Source: Thermodesulfovibrionales bacterium
Lineage (GTDB): Bacteria; Nitrospirota; Thermodesulfovibrionia; Thermodesulfovibrionales; Dissulfurispiraceae
Assembly: GCA_020062545.1 (NCBI GenBank)
Contig: JAGUWD010000002.1
Coordinates: forward strand, 62,001 to 126,000
Length of the DNA: 64,000 nt
Direction of reading: 5' to 3'
Below are positions 483-19,226 of this stretch, piece after piece. Within the stretch, counting starts at the first letter, position 1. Each line of letters begins with the position of its first letter. The notes below the pieces were generated by a model. It had not been told where the DNA came from, did no database searches, and was given only the letters and a program-made list of their open reading frames with translations. The position numbers and the translations under genes are program-made.

Positions 483-517
483 AACTCTTAACTCCGAACT
501 CTAAACTCTGAACTTTC
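483..517. repeat. Degenerate 7-bp tandem array (five units), 5' leader of the TonB receptor gene
   Basis: Five consecutive heptads of the form AACTCTN (GTTNNGA on the minus strand) fill the space between the cobalamin riboswitch and the receptor's ribosome site. In the minus-strand transcript they lie after the aptamer, where an expression platform would be expected. They belong to the heptad family seen throughout the window. Confidence 0.75.
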
Positions 518-518
518 T

Positions 519-669
519 GGCTTGGATAGGTCTTCCGGCTCAGGGCATCCTACTCACCCGCCTTCCCATCAAGATATTGCTCATGACAGTGGCTTTTGAT
601 TGGATTTTCGTTCCCTTCACGGCTGCGGGGCAGCGGAGGATTTTCACCTCTCTTCCCTGACATCCAGCC
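519..669 (-). promoter_or_regulatory. Cobalamin (AdoCbl/B12) riboswitch
   Basis: Read on the minus strand, the segment has the cobalamin aptamer landmarks in order: a GGCTGGAT arm that pairs with ATCC(A)AGCC at the other end (P1), a CCGCTGCCCCGCAG core, AGCCACTGTC, GGGAAGGCGGG, and a B12-box-like GAGCCGGAAGACC. It sits about 100 nt upstream of the TonB receptor start and should repress the receptor when cobalamin is plentiful. No clear terminator hairpin is seen between aptamer and start codon, so control may act on translation. Confidence 0.93.
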
Positions 670-770
670 AAATAATGTTTTTAGTGATTAGTGTTTTATA
701 CTTACTTTAACCACCTCCTCCTCTCAAGAATTTTCATGTCTCAAAATTGCTGACTTTATAGCATATGCCT

Positions 771-10138: not shown

Positions 10139-10453
10139 ATGATAAAGCTTGTTTTCATATTTATATTGTTTGCATCTTTATTTTCAGGAACCTACTCCAA
10201 AATCTCAGGAGGTGAAATTACCCCATACGGCGCTTATTGCCCTTTGTGTGGAGAATACGGATACTGCACAAAACAGCCTACAAAAAAAGAGATAACAGAT
10301 GCCCTGAAATCTTATTATTCGAAAAAGGGGCTAAGGGTAGTTTTGATAAAGCAGGACGGGAGATTTGCAGAGGCAGAGGTTTATAAAAATGGGGAACTCG
10401 TTGACAAAATACTGCTTGACTGCAGGACAGGAAGGATCAGGTCTATATATTAA
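10139..10453 (+). CDS. Secreted Cys-motif protein of unknown function
   Basis: The protein has 104 residues with a probable signal peptide (1-20). A mature part follows containing YCPLCGEYGYC (about residues 34-44), a small zinc-ribbon-like CxxC...C cluster, and then a mixed alpha/beta stretch. I do not recognise the family. It ends 27 bp before a strong intrinsic terminator, so it is probably the last gene of the preceding group. Its cysteines and periplasmic location fit a metal or redox role next to the copper island, but this is only context. Confidence 0.65.
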   Translation: MIKLVFIFILFASLFSGTYSKISGGEITPYGAYCPLCGEYGYCTKQPTKKEITDALKSYYSKKGLRVVLIKQDGRFAEAEVYKNGELVDKILLDCRTGRIRSIY

Positions 10454-10590: not shown

Positions 10591-10992
10591 ATGAGAAAAT
10601 TCCGAATAACATTATTGCTGATTATCGCGGCAGTGCTCTTTGCGGCAGCGGCAAACAACACATTCGCACAAAAGCCGATGAAGGATGAATCGCTGAGGAG
10701 AGGCGAGACAAGGGCAACCCTTAATCCAGATATGTTCGGCGATCCTCGCATTAAAAAGGCATATCAGGTGGCAAAAGAAATCCCATGGGTACTGGACAGC
10801 ATATACTGCTATTGCATGTGCGAGGAGTCCCCGGCATTCAAGCACAAGAGCCTACTGAGTTGCTATGTTGACAAACATGCTGCAATGTGAGACATTTGTC
10901 TTGGGGAGGCCCTGCGGGCTTCCGAGCTTTATAAAAAAGGCTATCCCGTAAAAAAGATACGGGATACTGTTGAAAAAGAGTTTAAGCGGTAG
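10591..10992 (+). CDS. PCYCGC-family exported protein with in-frame UGA (probable selenoprotein)
   Basis: The ATG at 10591 follows AGGAGGTGAG. A signal peptide (1-26) precedes a mature domain with CYCMC (73-77) and HKSLLSCYV (85-93), matching the PCYCGC-motif family. The frame meets TGA at codon 100 (10888-10890) and then continues without interruption for 33 residues (DICLGEAL... to EKEFKR) to TAG at 10990-10992. In homologues as I remember them, the codon-100 position is Cys in a HAAxCxxC motif, so TGA gives a U-x-x-C redox pair (U100, C103). A SECIS-like hairpin follows at 10905-10923. The next gene begins 8 bp after the TAG but 110 bp after the TGA, so readthrough gives the more natural spacing. 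The alternatives are a nonsense mutation or a base-call error. It probably handles copper or thiols in the periplasm. Confidence 0.75.
10905..10923 (+). promoter_or_regulatory. Candidate bacterial SECIS hairpin
   Basis: GGAGGCCC pairs with GGGCTTCC (8 bp, one G-U) around the 3-nt loop TGC. The loop starts 23 nt after the UGA, within the range usual for bacterial SECIS elements, and has a G at its second position as the bacterial consensus expects. No selA, selB or selC gene is in the window to confirm decoding. Confidence 0.55.
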
Positions 10993-11000
10993 GGGGAATT

Positions 11001-11726
11001 ATGAAAAAATTTATTGTAATAATTGTGCCGATCCTTTTATTGCTGTCAGGAGTTTATGCCGAGGGACATAAAGATCATGACCACAATAAGAAAAATGGAA
11101 TGTCAGAGCAGGCAACCCCTAATGAACATATAAAAATTTGTCCGGTAAGCGGTGATAAAATCGATGAGAAAACGGCGCAAACATATAAATACGAATATAA
11201 AGGTAAAATCTACAGCTTATGCTGCCAGATGTGCCTTGAAGAATTCAAAAAGGATCCGGAGAAATATATCAGCACCGTTTATACTCATTCGGATGGACGC
11301 AGCATGGAAGCCGAAAAGCCAAAATTCACAAAGCATCGCGATAACAGCCTTTTTAAAATCACGGACAAAGGCTTATTCAGCGTAGAAATGCTGCTGGATG
11401 GCAAAGAATTCAAAATCGGCAAGAATGATGTTGGGGTTGTCATACACGGCTCGCATGATGAAGATGTGGAAGGCGCAAAGATACACGTTGATCTGCTAAT
11501 ACACGGAGCATCTCCTTTAGACCTTGGCGATGTCGTTGTGCTCTCTGTTACCGAACAAAAAGGTGGCCTGTACACAATAAAGAATCTTGATCTCCAGAGA
11601 GGCGGTAATTGGGAATTGAGAATAAAAATTAAAAAACAAAAACTTGAAGATGGCGTTATCTTTGTTTTCCCTGATGCAATAAAACAGAATCTGCCTAAAG
11701 GCAAATATAATGCAGAAGGCATCTGA
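11001..11726 (+). CDS. Exported YHS-domain protein with a C-terminal beta domain
   Basis: The 241-residue protein has a signal peptide (1-20) and a His-rich linker (GHKDHDHNKK, about 22-31). A YHS/TRASH-like metal-binding domain follows (about 45-95: ICPVSGDKI... LCCQMCLEEFKKDPEKYI). The C-terminal region of about 120 residues ends in a beta-rich stretch like the YtkA/FixH fold (GGNWELRIKIKK). YHS domains bind copper or other soft metals through their Cys residues. A GGGGG ribosome site lies in the 8-bp gap after the PCYCGC gene. It is probably a periplasmic metal sensor or chaperone of the copper island. Confidence 0.8.
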   Translation: MKKFIVIIVPILLLLSGVYAEGHKDHDHNKKNGMSEQATPNEHIKICPVSGDKIDEKTAQTYKYEYKGKIYSLCCQMCLEEFKKDPEKYISTVYTHSDGRSMEAEKPKFTKHRDNSLFKITDKGLFSVEMLLDGKEFKIGKNDVGVVIHGSHDEDVEGAKIHVDLLIHGASPLDLGDVVVLSVTEQKGGLYTIKNLDLQRGGNWELRIKIKKQKLEDGVIFVFPDAIKQNLPKGKYNAEGI

Positions 11727-11808: not shown

Positions 11809-12876
11809 GTGAGAGACCCCATATGTAACATGGAAGTAGATGAAAGAAATGCCTTCACAGCAGAATGTGAAGGCAGAACCTTTTATTTCTGCTCAGAGGG
11901 ATGCAGGGAAAGGTTCATGAGAGAAAGGATATGCAAAATTCCCCGTACATCTTATGACCTCATAATAATCGGCGGCGGCCCTGCTGGACTTACGGCCGCT
12001 GTATATGCAGCCACACTGAAGATGGATGCCTTTCTCATAACAAAAGACCTCGGCGGACAGGCCATTGACAGCACAAAGATAGAAAACTACATGGGCTTTG
12101 ATTTCATCACAGGACCAGAACTTGTAGAGAAATTCCAGTATCAGCTTATCCACTCCCATTACATTGACCACCTTATGAGCGATGTTGAAAAGATTGAAGC
12201 AAGTGATGGCGGATTTAATGTCACCGCATCAGAACTCAAAACATATTTGGCAAAGACATTAATCATCGCCACAGGCATGACAAGACAAAAACTGAAGGTT
12301 CCAGGAGAAGAGGAGTTTCAGAGAAAGGGCATCTTTTATGGAAACATTCAGGATTTCTCTTTTGTCCAGGGGGAGGATGTTGCAGTGATAGGCGGCGGCA
12401 ATTCTGCATTGCAGATAGTTGAAAACCTCAATACCATAGCAAGAAACATATACATCGTCTCTGACAGCAGACTCACAGCAGACCCTGTAATAGTTGAAAG
12501 GGTGAGCGCCTTTAAAAACCTGAAGAAATACGAGGGGTATAAGGTTTTAGAATTTAAGGGTGAAAAGACACTGTCAAGTATTGTTATAAGGAAAATAGCA
12601 TCTGATGAGACATCAGACATTCCAGTTAAAGGTGCCTTTATTGCGATAGGCTTGCAATCCAATTCTTCTCTTGTCTCTCATCTTGTTGAACTTAACGAAA
12701 GAGGTGAGATTATCATCAATCCTGACTGTTCAACTTCATATCCCGGGATATTTGCAGCAGGAGATGTAACCAATGCTTTTGGAAAGAGGATAATTATAGC
12801 CTCTGGTGAGGGCGCAAAAGCAGCATTATCTGCAAGGCGGTATTTATTGAGTCAAATAAAAAATAACAGGGGGTAA
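11809..12876 (+). CDS. YHS domain fused to a thioredoxin-reductase-like flavoprotein lacking the redox CxxC
   Basis: A GTG start follows GGAGAGG. Residues 1-40 are a YHS domain (DPICNMEV, FYFCSEGCRERF). From about residue 47 there is an FAD/NAD(P) flavoprotein: FAD GGGPAGLTAA near 55, NAD(P) site VIGGGNSALQIVE near 198, C-terminal FAAGDVTNA near 317. In thioredoxin reductases the second nucleotide domain carries a CATC redox motif just before its GxGxxA site. Here that place reads IFYGNIQDFSF with no Cys, so it cannot be an ordinary thioredoxin reductase. An NAD(P)H-dependent reductase that delivers electrons to a YHS-bound metal is a reasonable guess. Its stop overlaps the next start (TAATG). 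Confidence 0.82.
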   Translation: MRDPICNMEVDERNAFTAECEGRTFYFCSEGCRERFMRERICKIPRTSYDLIIIGGGPAGLTAAVYAATLKMDAFLITKDLGGQAIDSTKIENYMGFDFITGPELVEKFQYQLIHSHYIDHLMSDVEKIEASDGGFNVTASELKTYLAKTLIIATGMTRQKLKVPGEEEFQRKGIFYGNIQDFSFVQGEDVAVIGGGNSALQIVENLNTIARNIYIVSDSRLTADPVIVERVSAFKNLKKYEGYKVLEFKGEKTLSSIVIRKIASDETSDIPVKGAFIAIGLQSNSSLVSHLVELNERGEIIINPDCSTSYPGIFAAGDVTNAFGKRIIIASGEGAKAALSARRYLLSQIKNNRG

Positions 12877-13751: not shown

Positions 13752-16145
13752 ATGAAGGTCACAGACCCTGTTTGTAAGATGTCAATAGAAGATAGTGAGG
13801 CTGTTGCCAGTTCAACATACAAAGGCATAACTTATCACTTCTGCTCAAGGAATTGCAAGGATAAATTTGACGGCAACCCCGCTCTCTTTCTTGTGGAAAA
13901 AGCTCCAGGGCCTTCAAAAACAGGTGTAATTTTCACCTGCCCCATGCATCCTGAGATAAGGCAGGAGGGACCAGGCTCCTGCCCGAAATGTGGAATGGCT
14001 CTTGAGCCCGTAAGTCCTCCTGCTGGAAAGACTGAATGGACATGCCCGATGCATCCTGAGATTATCAGAGATTCTCCAGGAAGTTGTCCTATCTGTGGAA
14101 TGGCACTGGAACCAAGAACTATCTCAACAGAGGAGGAAAATCCTGAACTGATTGATATGACAAGACGTTTCAGGGCTGGAGTAATTCTTACAATCCCGTT
14201 AATCTTTATTGCCATGAGCGATTATATCCCTTTGTTTTCACTAAAAACACTCCTTTCTCATGAACTCCTGAAATGGATAGACCTCCTCCTCGCAACACCT
14301 GTTGTTCTATGGGCTGGATGGCCATTCTTTGTGCGATTCTGGCAATCCATTATAAGCCGTAACCTCAATATGTTCACATTGATAGGACTCGGTGTGGGTG
14401 TAGCCTACATTTACAGTGTTGTTGCATCGCTTTTCCCAGGCCTATTCCCTGCCTCTTTTAGAAAGGATGGTGAGATCGGGGTATATTTTGAGGCTGCAGC
14501 AGTTATAGTGACCCTCGTGCTTCTTGGGCAGGTGCTTGAACTAAAGGCAAGGAGTAAGACAGGCGCTGCGATCAAGATGCTCTTGGGGCTTGCACCAAAG
14601 ACAGCCCGAAGAATAAGAGATGGTATAGAAGAGGATATACCCCTTGAGCATGTAAAGATAGGAGACTTGCTCCGTGTTCGTCCAGGAGAGAAGATACCTG
14701 TTGATGGCATTGTTATTGAAGGGACAAGTTCTGTTGATGAATCAATGGTTACAGGAGAACCTATTCCTGTTGAGAAACAGAAGGGAGATCGGGTAATTGG
14801 TGCAACTGTAAATGGAACAGGCATGTTGATAATGAAGGCTGAGAAGGTTGGAGCAGATACCCTGCTTTCACAGATTGTTCATATGGTTGCAGAGGCGCAG
14901 AGAAGCAGGGCACCTATTCAGAAGCTTGCAGATATTGTGGCAGGCTATTTTGTTCAGATAGTTGTTGCCGTAGCAGTAATTACCTTCATTATGTGGGCAT
15001 GGCTTGGTCCTGAACCCAGAATGGCCCATGCAATTATCAATGCAGTAGCTGTATTAATCATCGCCTGTCCCTGTGCCCTTGGACTTGCAACACCAATGTC
15101 CATAATGGTTGCAATGGGAAAAGGCGCGACAGCTGGAGTGCTTTTTAAAAACGCAGAGGCGATAGAGGTAATGAAGAAAATTGATACACTCGTTGTTGAT
15201 AAAACAGGTACTCTTACTGTTGGCAAGCCGAGGCTTATGAAGATAGTTCCATTTCAGGGATTTAATGAAGACAGGATACTTTATCTTTCAGCGAGCCTTG
15301 AACGCGGAAGTGAACATCCCCTTGCAGAGGCAATTGTAAGGGCTGCTGAGGAAAGAGGTATAAAGCTCAACGATGTTAAGGATTTTAAATCCATTACAGG
15401 CAAAGGTGTGACAGGCAGGATTGATGGACATGAGGTCACACTGGGAAACAAAAAACTCCTTGATGACCTGGGCATTGACCCTGCTGAAGTATTGACAAAG
15501 GCTGATGAAATGCGTGCCGATGGGCAGACAGTCATGTTTGTTACAGTAGATGGTAAGGTGATAGGGCTTCTCGGTGTTGCAGACCCGATAAAAGAATCTA
15601 CACCGGAGGCGATTGATGCACTCCATAGAGAAGGCATACGTATCGTGATGCTTACAGGAGACAATCGTATTACAGCAGAGGCAGTGGCAAGGAAGCTTAA
15701 TATTGATGATGTGATTGCAGAGGTCCTGCCTGACCAGAAGTCCGAGGTTGTAAAAAAACTGCAGAATGAAGGACGACTTGTTGCAATGGCAGGGGATGGA
15801 ATAAATGACGCACCGGCACTGGCGCAGGCTCATGTAGGTATAGCAATGGGAACAGGCACAGATGTAGCGATGGAAAGCGCAGGCGTAACACTTATAAAAG
15901 GTGACCTCATGGGGATTGTTAGGGCAAGGAGGCTCAGCAGGGCAACAATGCGAAATATAAAACAGAACCTCTTCTGGGCCTTTATTTATAATACCCTCGG
16001 AGTCCCGATTGCAGCAGGTGTTCTTTATCCATTCTCTGGAATACTTCTGAGTCCCGTATTTGCAGCGGCTGCCATGAGCTTCAGCTCTGTATCAGTGGTT
16101 GGCAATGCCTTGAGGCTGAGGAGGGTAAAGATAGTCGAACAATAA
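13752..16145 (+). CDS. copA: Copper-exporting P1B-type ATPase CopA with YHS and two heavy-metal-binding domains
   Basis: The 797-residue ATPase has a YHS domain (about 1-46, DPVCKMS... HFCSRNC) and two successive heavy-metal-binding domains (CPMHPEI...[10 protein letters not shown] near 57-83 and CPMHPEI...[10 protein letters not shown] near 95-120). The pump follows: MVTGEP, the metal-translocating CPC in [11 protein letters not shown], phosphorylation site [16 protein letters not shown] and [14 protein letters not shown] with these motifs indicates Cu(I) export from the cytoplasm. A run of eight G precedes the ATG as ribosome site. The HMA domains of classical CopA are replaced here by YHS and the CPMHP modules. 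Confidence 0.94.
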
Positions 16146-16319: not shown

Positions 16320-16709
16320 ATGAAGAAATTGGCGGTATTTACTTTGATCCTGCTTTTAATTGCAGGCATCGCTTATGCAAAGGATTATGAGGTAAAGAAA
16401 AAAGCGGGGGAATATAATGTTGAGGTAAAAATAGACAAAAACCCGCCTATAGTCGGAGATAACAATATCACGGTCGAAGTCAAGGACGCATCCGGCAAAT
16501 ATGTCACCGATGCAAAGGTAAAGGTCGAATACTCCATGCCTGCAATGCCCGGAATGCCGGCAATGAATTACAAGGCAGATACAGTATTAAGCGGAAATGA
16601 ATACAAGGCGAAGATAAATTTTTCGATGTCAGGTGCATGGAATGTCGTAATTAAGATCAGCCGCGCTGGCAAAACAGCATCGCTAAAATTCAATGTTGAC
16701 GCAAGGTAA
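16320..16709 (+). CDS. Exported YtkA/FixH-like protein
   Basis: The ATG at 16320 after AGGAGG gives a clean signal peptide (1-19, ending AYA); the longer reading from 16284 runs through the pseudogene relic and is rejected. The 129-residue product has an immunoglobulin-like YtkA-type beta domain (GEYNVEVKIDKNPP, VEYSMPAMPGMPAMNYK, GAWNVVIKIS). Met-Pro repeats (MPAMPGMPAM, about 75-84) could bind copper. It overlaps the outer-membrane factor gene by 17 bp, so it belongs to the cusCBA-type operon. A periplasmic copper-chaperone role is inferred. Confidence 0.82.
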   Translation: MKKLAVFTLILLLIAGIAYAKDYEVKKKAGEYNVEVKIDKNPPIVGDNNITVEVKDASGKYVTDAKVKVEYSMPAMPGMPAMNYKADTVLSGNEYKAKINFSMSGAWNVVIKISRAGKTASLKFNVDAR

Positions 16710-18000
16710 AAGTAATAGGTTAAGGTTGAGAAATTTAATTTCTCTTATACTAAATATCTTAACCTTAGCCTCTCCTGTATTTGCCGAGGAATTAAATCTT
16801 CAGCAACTGATTGACGAGGCATTGAAGAACAATCATGAAATCCTTATTGCCAAAGCAAAAATAAATACCTCGAAATTCAGAATACCGCAGGCAAAGAGCC
16901 TTCCCGACCCGATGTTTATGTTCGGTTATCAGAATGAAGGCTTCAGGAAACTCTATAACTTCTCTGAGTCCCCTGATTCTCAGTGGATGTTCTCTGCGTC
17001 GCAAACATTCCCTTTCCCGGGGAAATTATCTCTGAAAGGTGAAATGGCTTCATGGGATGCTGAAAGCCAGAAGGCATTCTCCGAAGTCATCAGGTTAAAA
17101 ACCATAACACGTGTCAAAGAGCTTTATTATGATCTGTTCCTTGCATATAAGAATATCGACCTTATCAAAGACAGAACCATTCTCTTTTCGAGGATAGAGG
17201 ATGCAGCACTTTCAAGATATTCAGCAGGAATGGCCCCACAGCAAGAGGTATTAATGGCTCAGACAGAAAAGTATATGCTCCTTGAGAAAGAGACAATGCT
17301 CAGACAAAAAATACAATCCACAGAAGCGATGCTTAATACCACTATAGGCAGGGATGTCAGCTCGCCCCTCGGCAGGCCTGCTGAAGTGTCATATACCATA
17401 TTCCCGCAAAACATGGAGGGGCTAATCAATACAGCATATGCAAATTCCCCTGAGATAAGGGTCAGAGAGAAAATGATCAGAGGGGCAGAGGCAAAGGTTG
17501 AAATGGCTAAAAGGGAATACTATCCTGACTTTACAATCAACGGCAGCTATTTTTTAAGAAATAAAGAAGTGCCTGATATGTGGAGTCTTACAACTACCAT
17601 TAATATCCCGATCTTTTATAAGACAAAACAGAAACAGGCAGTCAATGAGGCAGAGGCATCACTGTCAGAGGCAAGGCATGAGCTCGAATCAACCAAAATA
17701 ATGCTGTCTTCAGCAATCAGGGACAATTACTCCATGCTCAGGACAGCAGAAAAATTAATGGAATTATACAAAAACGGATTAATCCCAAAAACATATCAGG
17801 ATTTTGAGGCTGCCCTTGCAGGGTATATCACCGGAAAGGTTGAAGCCATTACCGTTATATCGAGGCTGAAATCCCTTATTGAGTTCGAAACATTATACTG
17901 GAATCAGTTCGTCGAGAGGGAAAAGGCAGTAGCACGGATTGAGGCGATAACAGGCGTTGAGCGTCAAGCGTCAGGTGTTAAGGGTCAGGAGGGGAAATGA
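16693..18000 (+). CDS. Outer-membrane efflux factor (TolC/CusC family)
   Basis: The 435-residue protein has an N-terminal signal region ending SPVFA and two outer-membrane-efflux repeats rich in helices (LNLQQLIDEALKNNHEI near 35; the repeat starts again near 230). It forms the outer-membrane tunnel of a tripartite pump. The start overlaps the YtkA-like gene by 17 bp and the stop overlaps the membrane-fusion gene (ATGA). The last residues (VERQASGVKGQEGK) are encoded by a 7-bp repeat array, so the C-terminus has probably been extended by repeat growth. An internal inverted repeat lies in the signal-peptide region. Confidence 0.9.
   Translation: MLTQGKSNRLRLRNLISLILNILTLASPVFAEELNLQQLIDEALKNNHEILIAKAKINTSKFRIPQAKSLPDPMFMFGYQNEGFRKLYNFSESPDSQWMFSASQTFPFPGKLSLKGEMASWDAESQKAFSEVIRLKTITRVKELYYDLFLAYKNIDLIKDRTILFSRIEDAALSRYSAGMAPQQEVLMAQTEKYMLLEKETMLRQKIQSTEAMLNTTIGRDVSSPLGRPAEVSYTIFPQNMEGLINTAYANSPEIRVREKMIRGAEAKVEMAKREYYPDFTINGSYFLRNKEVPDMWSLTTTINIPIFYKTKQKQAVNEAEASLSEARHELESTKIMLSSAIRDNYSMLRTAEKLMELYKNGLIPKTYQDFEAALAGYITGKVEAITVISRLKSLIEFETLYWNQFVEREKAVARIEAITGVERQASGVKGQEGK
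17954..17988. repeat. In-frame 7-bp array at the 3' end of the outer-membrane factor gene
   Basis: Five heptads of the GCGTCAA type encode the C-terminal low-complexity tail just before the overlap with the next gene. Confidence 0.8.
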
Positions 18001-19226
18001 AAAAAAGAAAATTATTAATAATTGCAACAGGATTAATTTTAATTGCAGGTCTTTTATTGTATTTTTCAAAGGCAATATCTCTAAACACTATTTTTAAAAA
18101 CAAAAGTGCGGAATCCGCAAAAACACAGCCTTCAGAGCATCAGGGACATACCGGCGGTGCCATCCAGACTCAAACACAACAGCCCTCGGATACACAGGCT
18201 GCAGAAGAAGAGCCTCCCACAGTAGAAATACCTCCGGAAAAACAACAAATGATAGGAGTAAAAACAGTCGAGGTATCCGTAAAACCCCTTCAAAAGATCA
18301 TCAGGACGGTCGGACGCATTGAATACGACGAGCGCAGGTTATATACCATCAATACGAAATTCGAAGGATGGATAGAAAAGCTCTACGTGGATTACACGGG
18401 AAGATATGTTAAAAAAGGAGAGCCTCTCGCTGATATTTACAGTCCTGAGCTTTTCGCAACACAGCAGGAATTCATAAATCTCCTGAAGTGGTCAAAACAG
18501 AACACAGAAGACAAGAGACAGAAGACAGAGATTGGGACGATGCTCTCAAGAGATGCTGAATCAATAATTGAGGCAGCCAGACAAAGATTGAGACTCTGGG
18601 ATATAACAGACAGCCAGATTAAGAAAATCGAGGAGACCGGAAAACCTGTAAGAACACTTACTGTTTACAGTCCTGTAAACGGCTATATCTTGCAGAAGAC
18701 GGCATTGCAAGGCATGCGTGTAATGCCTGGAGAGAAGCTCTTTGATGTCGCTGATTTATCAAATGTCTGGATTATCTCTGATATTTATGAATATGAATTG
18801 TCACTTATTAAAACAGGGCAACGGGCAAATATCAGCCTAAGTTACTTCCCGGGCAAAGAATTTTCATCAACGATTGATTATGTATACCCTACCCTTTCAG
18901 GCGAAACAAGGACAGCAAAAGTAAGATTCTCAATCCCAAATCCCGGAGGACAGCTTAAACCACAGATGTTTACCAATGTGGAAGTAAAGATCAATCTCGG
19001 CAAAAGGCTTGCTATTCCTGAGGATGCGGTTATTGATACTGGTGTAAGACAGATCGTTTATGTGGATAAGGGAGAAGGATATTTTGAGCCGAGAGAAGTT
19101 ATGCTGGGACTCAAGGCTGACGGGATGGTGGAGGTTTTAAAAGGCCTCAAGGCAGGAGAAAAGATAGCATCGGCAGCAAACTTCCTCATCGATTCAGAGG
19201 CAAAGCTGAAGGGAATTGTAAAATAA
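17997..19226 (+). CDS. cusB: Periplasmic adaptor (membrane fusion) protein, CusB type
   Basis: The 409-residue protein has an N-terminal membrane anchor (about 5-24) and a polar linker with EHQGHTGG. CusB-type beta-barrel, lipoyl and hairpin regions follow (VKTVEVSVKPLQKIIRTVGRIEYDE..., YSPELFATQQEF, VYSPVNGYILQK, LSYFPGKEF). It joins the inner-membrane pump to the outer-membrane factor and in CusB also captures Cu(I)/Ag(I). A 7-bp array encodes NTEDKRQKTEIG in the alpha-hairpin, a place able to accept length change. It overlaps the previous stop and ends 2 bp before the pump gene. Confidence 0.88.
   Translation: MKKRKLLIIATGLILIAGLLLYFSKAISLNTIFKNKSAESAKTQPSEHQGHTGGAIQTQTQQPSDTQAAEEEPPTVEIPPEKQQMIGVKTVEVSVKPLQKIIRTVGRIEYDERRLYTINTKFEGWIEKLYVDYTGRYVKKGEPLADIYSPELFATQQEFINLLKWSKQNTEDKRQKTEIGTMLSRDAESIIEAARQRLRLWDITDSQIKKIEETGKPVRTLTVYSPVNGYILQKTALQGMRVMPGEKLFDVADLSNVWIISDIYEYELSLIKTGQRANISLSYFPGKEFSSTIDYVYPTLSGETRTAKVRFSIPNPGGQLKPQMFTNVEVKINLGKRLAIPEDAVIDTGVRQIVYVDKGEGYFEPREVMLGLKADGMVEVLKGLKAGEKIASAANFLIDSEAKLKGIVK
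18499..18533. repeat. In-frame 7-bp array in the adaptor gene
   Basis: Four clear heptads of the AGAAGAC type plus a degenerate fifth encode a charged loop inside the predicted alpha-hairpin. Confidence 0.8.

Follow-up and report, generated by a model that had tools for sequence, protein, structure and literature searches.

Does a TGA codon that interrupts the gene of a small exported protein encode selenocysteine, and if so, what might the protein do and has its family been described before? We examined this for a locus within a 64,000-nt stretch of DNA (the window), which belongs to a genome of 2.62 Mb in 47 contigs with a listed completeness of 100%. The frame at 10591-10992 comprises 133 codons, with a single in-frame TGA at codon 100, a TAG at its end and a gap of 8 bp between this stop and the next ATG at 11001. 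Frame, coordinates, TGA, TAG and gap were all exactly as given in the original prediction, and the observation of a TGA-interrupted frame with a downstream hairpin is confirmed. The locus has the following features:

10591..10992, forward strand: predicted selenoprotein gene of the CYCXC family (OS_HP4), 133 aa, Sec at codon 100, stop codon TAG
10591..10671, forward strand: putative signal peptide (MRKFRITLLLIIAAVLFAAAANNTFAQ), judged by eye from the sequence
10807..10821, forward strand: CYCMC motif (Cys73, Cys75 and Cys77), its cysteines invariant in an alignment of relatives
10888..10890, forward strand: UGA codon 100, predicted selenocysteine, forming U-x-x-C with Cys103
10905..10923, forward strand: bacterial SECIS hairpin with an 8-bp stem and a UGC loop, the loop lying 22 nt from the UGA

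The protein matched the NCBIfam model NF041379 (OS_HP4_CYCXC, "CYCXC family (seleno)protein") over positions 1-90 of 90, with 126.1 bits against a curated cut-off of 90 bits (E 4e-37). It has the motifs that this model requires, namely CYCxC (CYCMC, residues 73-77) and a downstream C/U-x-x-C (U100-D-I-C103), and all 31 aligned relatives matched the same model. Membership of the Pfam family PF13798, which had been predicted, was borne out as well: with the TGA read through, the match scored 45 bits (gathering threshold 25). The literal PCYCGC motif is absent from the window protein, which has YCYCMC instead and shares only CYCxC with it; membership of PF13798 therefore rests on the profile score, since Pfam defines this family by profile and not by the literal motif. 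NF041379 is the more precise filing for this protein.

The original prediction had also proposed a new selenoprotein in a family without a described one, and this part did not hold, because NF041379 and two reviews already name OS_HP4. "Hypothetical protein OS_HP4, UxxC" is given as a selenoprotein in PMC9312934, and OS_HP4 (UxxC, PF13798), with one Sec, is in the selenoprotein list of the later review, PMC13188914. Both credit it to Zhang and Gladyshev 2007, on the Olavius algarvensis symbiont. The family has thus been known for selenoproteins since 2007 and has an NCBI model of its own, and the window gene adds no new family.

We then considered whether the UGA is decoded as selenocysteine in this genome. 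The hairpin, GGAGGCCC-TGC-GGGCTTCC, begins at the 15th nucleotide past the UGA and has G at loop position 2. Published limits for bSECIS elements (PMC13188914) are a loop of 3-9 nt, a stem of 4-16 bp, a G among the first two loop nucleotides, a UGA-to-loop spacing of 16-37 nt and an MFE of at most -7.5. The window hairpin lies within every one of them (loop 3 nt, stem 8 bp, spacing 22 nt, -14.6 kcal/mol). When the same peptide was recoded synonymously 20,000 times, 0.11% of the recodings reached equal stability at this site, and 1.3% retained the 8-bp stem. A search of Rfam at the gathering threshold returned no RNA family at the hairpin.

In relatives with the TGA (23 distinct forms), the 8-bp stem averaged 7.5 pairs with a mean of -12.8 kcal/mol, whereas the equivalent place in the Cys forms (n=8) averaged 3.8 pairs and -3.4 kcal/mol. 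Every slid version of the stem scored worse in the TGA forms than the hairpin in place, and 94% of their stem cells pair. Two pairs are altered on both sides, although such covariation alone is of limited weight because of the coding constraint and the relatedness of the sequences; the contrast between Sec and Cys forms in hairpin retention is the stronger evidence. The predicted SECIS-like hairpin is thus conserved in TGA forms and fits the published bSECIS model.

A scan of genome contigs with the single protein as query had given three close loci only, and we therefore used a phylum-wide family search. An NF041379-family match over the cut-off was found in 75 of the 396 genomes of the phylum; in 56 of these 75, at least one copy had a TGA within the match, and the other 19 had uninterrupted copies only. 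The TGA stood at the equivalent codon in all 23 distinct TGA forms that were read. In the 31 aligned proteins, the Sec100/Cys column was invariant (the alignment program reads Sec as C), as were Cys73, Cys75, Cys77, His85, Cys91, His96 and Cys103. UGA thus takes the place of a cysteine that is invariant in the Cys forms read, as had been proposed for codon 100.

These data bear on the idea that the TGA is really a TGT or TGC, altered by faulty sequencing or assembly. We give this the lowest probability of all the readings, close to nil, since recurrence contradicts it: 56 genomes of the phylum, each assembled separately, have TGA inside this family match, and with it comes a matching hairpin that is missing in Cys forms. 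Nor is it at all probable that the TGA is a true stop, yielding a truncated product of 99 residues with decaying codons downstream. Table 11 alone does end the frame at 10890, but TGA and hairpin are found again in many other genera and the post-TGA codons are conserved at the protein level. In comparisons with six relatives, synonymous codon changes in these 33 codons (6-14) outnumbered non-synonymous ones (3-5), and the codons beyond the TGA are under protein-level selection.

The full selenocysteine machinery of the genome also argues against a true stop. As the original prediction had suggested checking, selA (626 bits), selB (396 bits), selD (320 bits) and a tRNA-Sec (selC) with anticodon tca were all present. 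Two of the conditions named there as refuting the prediction, a genome lacking this machinery and homologues without Cys at the position, thus did not hold. Across the phylum, selA was found in 54 of the 56 TGA-form genomes and in 8 of the 19 Cys-only genomes (Fisher p 9e-7, an optimistic value because the genomes are related and several are incomplete). For two genomes of the same genus that contain selA and selB (G001 and G002), no tRNA-Sec was found, the model hits over the gathering threshold being tRNA-Ser by ARAGORN; the apparent absence possibly reflects assembly gaps. The window gene is very probably a selenoprotein gene of the CYCXC (OS_HP4) family, and selenocysteine insertion at UGA codon 100 is strongly supported by these sequence comparisons. 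The family offers an unusually clean comparative case: Sec forms retain the SECIS, Cys forms lack it, and Cys-only genomes are often without selA.

Several observations on TGA usage were made alongside. The selD of this genome (G000:C19:20916-21830, L021) itself carries a TGA near the N-terminus, followed by a SECIS-like GGTCC-GTC-GGACC hairpin with a 3-nt loop. The terminal stop is apparently also TGA in the Sec-form relatives L029, L039, L042, L043, L050 and L056, so that UGA would serve as both Sec and stop in one gene; the window copy ends in TAG. One genome (G272:C1) holds four copies of the family, some interrupted by TGA and some not, and a single copy has two TGA codons. Four others (G134:C34, G221:C29, G320:C32 and G374:C23) hold the C-terminal half of the family only, with TGA, in frames of ~50 codons, which may be split or frameshifted genes, or something else.

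What the protein does has to be approached through its residues, its model and its neighbours. The AlphaFold model is all-helical (mean pLDDT 82, pTM 0.69), with an N-terminal helix at 2-21 followed by a low-confidence linker at 23-29, and with a helix that begins at 101, directly past Sec100. A sequence-profile search of the Protein Data Bank gave no match up to E 5, and Foldseek against solved structures gave nothing below E 3. A U-x-x-C where a helix begins is a typical feature of thiol redox sites, and the position of the modelled helix right after Sec100 would suit a redox U-x-x-C. The surroundings of the gene in the window are as follows:

11001..11726, forward strand: exported YHS-domain protein, 8 bp downstream of the CYCXC gene
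11809..12876, forward strand: YHS and thioredoxin-reductase-like flavoprotein
13752..16145, forward strand: copper-type P-type ATPase
16320..19226, forward strand: YtkA-like, OEP (CusC-like) and CusB-like genes
508-682, reverse strand: cobalamin riboswitch (Rfam, 82 bits)

The copper-island setting that had been proposed is present at this locus, with P-type ATPase, CusB-like, OEP, YHS and YtkA-like genes downstream, and the in-frame UGA, read as a predicted selenocysteine, would thus lie within a copper-export neighbourhood. Among the neighbourhoods of 18 relatives, CusB-like and OEP genes were near the family gene in five; a thioredoxin-like gene lay directly downstream in three (two were checked, and both proved ResA-like), and others had neither kind of neighbour. 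The copper link is frequent in close relatives yet not general, and because the neighbourhoods differ we regard it as lineage-specific. Upstream in the window, 10139-10453 encodes a small exported protein with CPLCGEYGYC for which a Pfam search gave no match; a similar TPYG..C..C stretch occurs in proteins encoded close to the family's gene in L060 and L062.

The neighbours could be taken to mean that the selenoprotein is read through but that Sec and the Cys/His cluster are mainly periplasmic metal (copper) ligands and not a redox pair. The copper-type genes in the window, the CusB-like genes in the five relatives, and the five Cys and two His that are invariant besides Sec all fit this reading, which is nonetheless rather unlikely in our estimation: copper genes are missing from the surroundings in several relatives, the adjacent gene is thioredoxin-like instead in three, and the U-x-x-C at a helix start points to redox chemistry. 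To a redox role as the main function of the CYCXC protein we would give about an even chance. Our best-supported guess at the function of the family, drawn from residues and neighbours, is thiol/selenol redox work in the periplasm, possibly with metal. SelB and Sec-tRNA-Sec would insert selenocysteine at UGA codon 100, guided by the hairpin starting 15 nt downstream, and the mature protein would be exported as a small helical domain. Sec100 and Cys103 may then form a selenenylsulfide redox pair at the helix start, while CYCxC together with the invariant His85, Cys91 and His96 could provide either another thiol pair or a site for metal. The protein would exchange electrons with periplasmic partners or pass metal to them (copper here). 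The ResA-like and copper-export neighbours are testable hints to this function.

A further possibility is distant kinship of the family with CcmH, whose motif is LRCxxC and which is a helical thiol-disulfide protein with a non-thioredoxin fold; the family would then act on the thiols of periplasmic apo-proteins. The N-domain of E. coli CcmH ranked second in structural alignment (Z 4.5, 65 residues, rmsd 3.3), but a Z below ~13 may reflect merely a common helical arrangement, and a designed protein outscored it. In hhalign against CcmH from the same phylum, U-x-x-C fell on CxxC in an alignment of 34 columns, with a probability of 44% and, for this one comparison, E 2e-4; both profiles are shallow. 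Also in favour, a CcmH was not found in the window's own genome; against it, Pfam CcmH (PF03918) was not among the Pfam matches of the window protein at E up to 1. We consider such kinship improbable, and equally so the wider proposal that CYCXC/PCYCGC proteins are remote, partly selenium-using CcmH counterparts, that is, a helical thiol/selenol redox module of non-thioredoxin fold whose targets are thiols of periplasmic proteins or thiols bound to metal.

Set beside known systems, the window protein as modelled would resemble the N-terminal domain of CcmH (PF03918) in being small, helical and periplasmic and in having its CxxC-type motif close to where a helix begins, but it lacks the LRCxxCQ motif of CcmH, and the weak structural and profile similarity is a lead, not an established homology. 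With PF13798 PCYCGC proteins, such as the Parageobacillus lipoprotein (PMC13068155), it has in common the profile match, CYCxC and further conserved cysteines; it differs in having YCYCMC, with Sec predicted to replace one Cys, and in an N-terminus that by eye is a signal peptide not of the lipoprotein type. OS_HP3 (NF041197), OS_HP5 (NF041383) and the YHS selenoprotein (NF041384) come from the same literature source (Zhang and Gladyshev 2007), according to the table in PMC13188914, but are protein families distinct from OS_HP4. The closest counterpart is NF041379 OS_HP4_CYCXC itself: the match is at equivalog level over the full 90-position model, with CYCxC and U-x-x-C in common, and the window protein, from an uncultured Nitrospirota-type genome, differs from it by ordinary sequence divergence alone.
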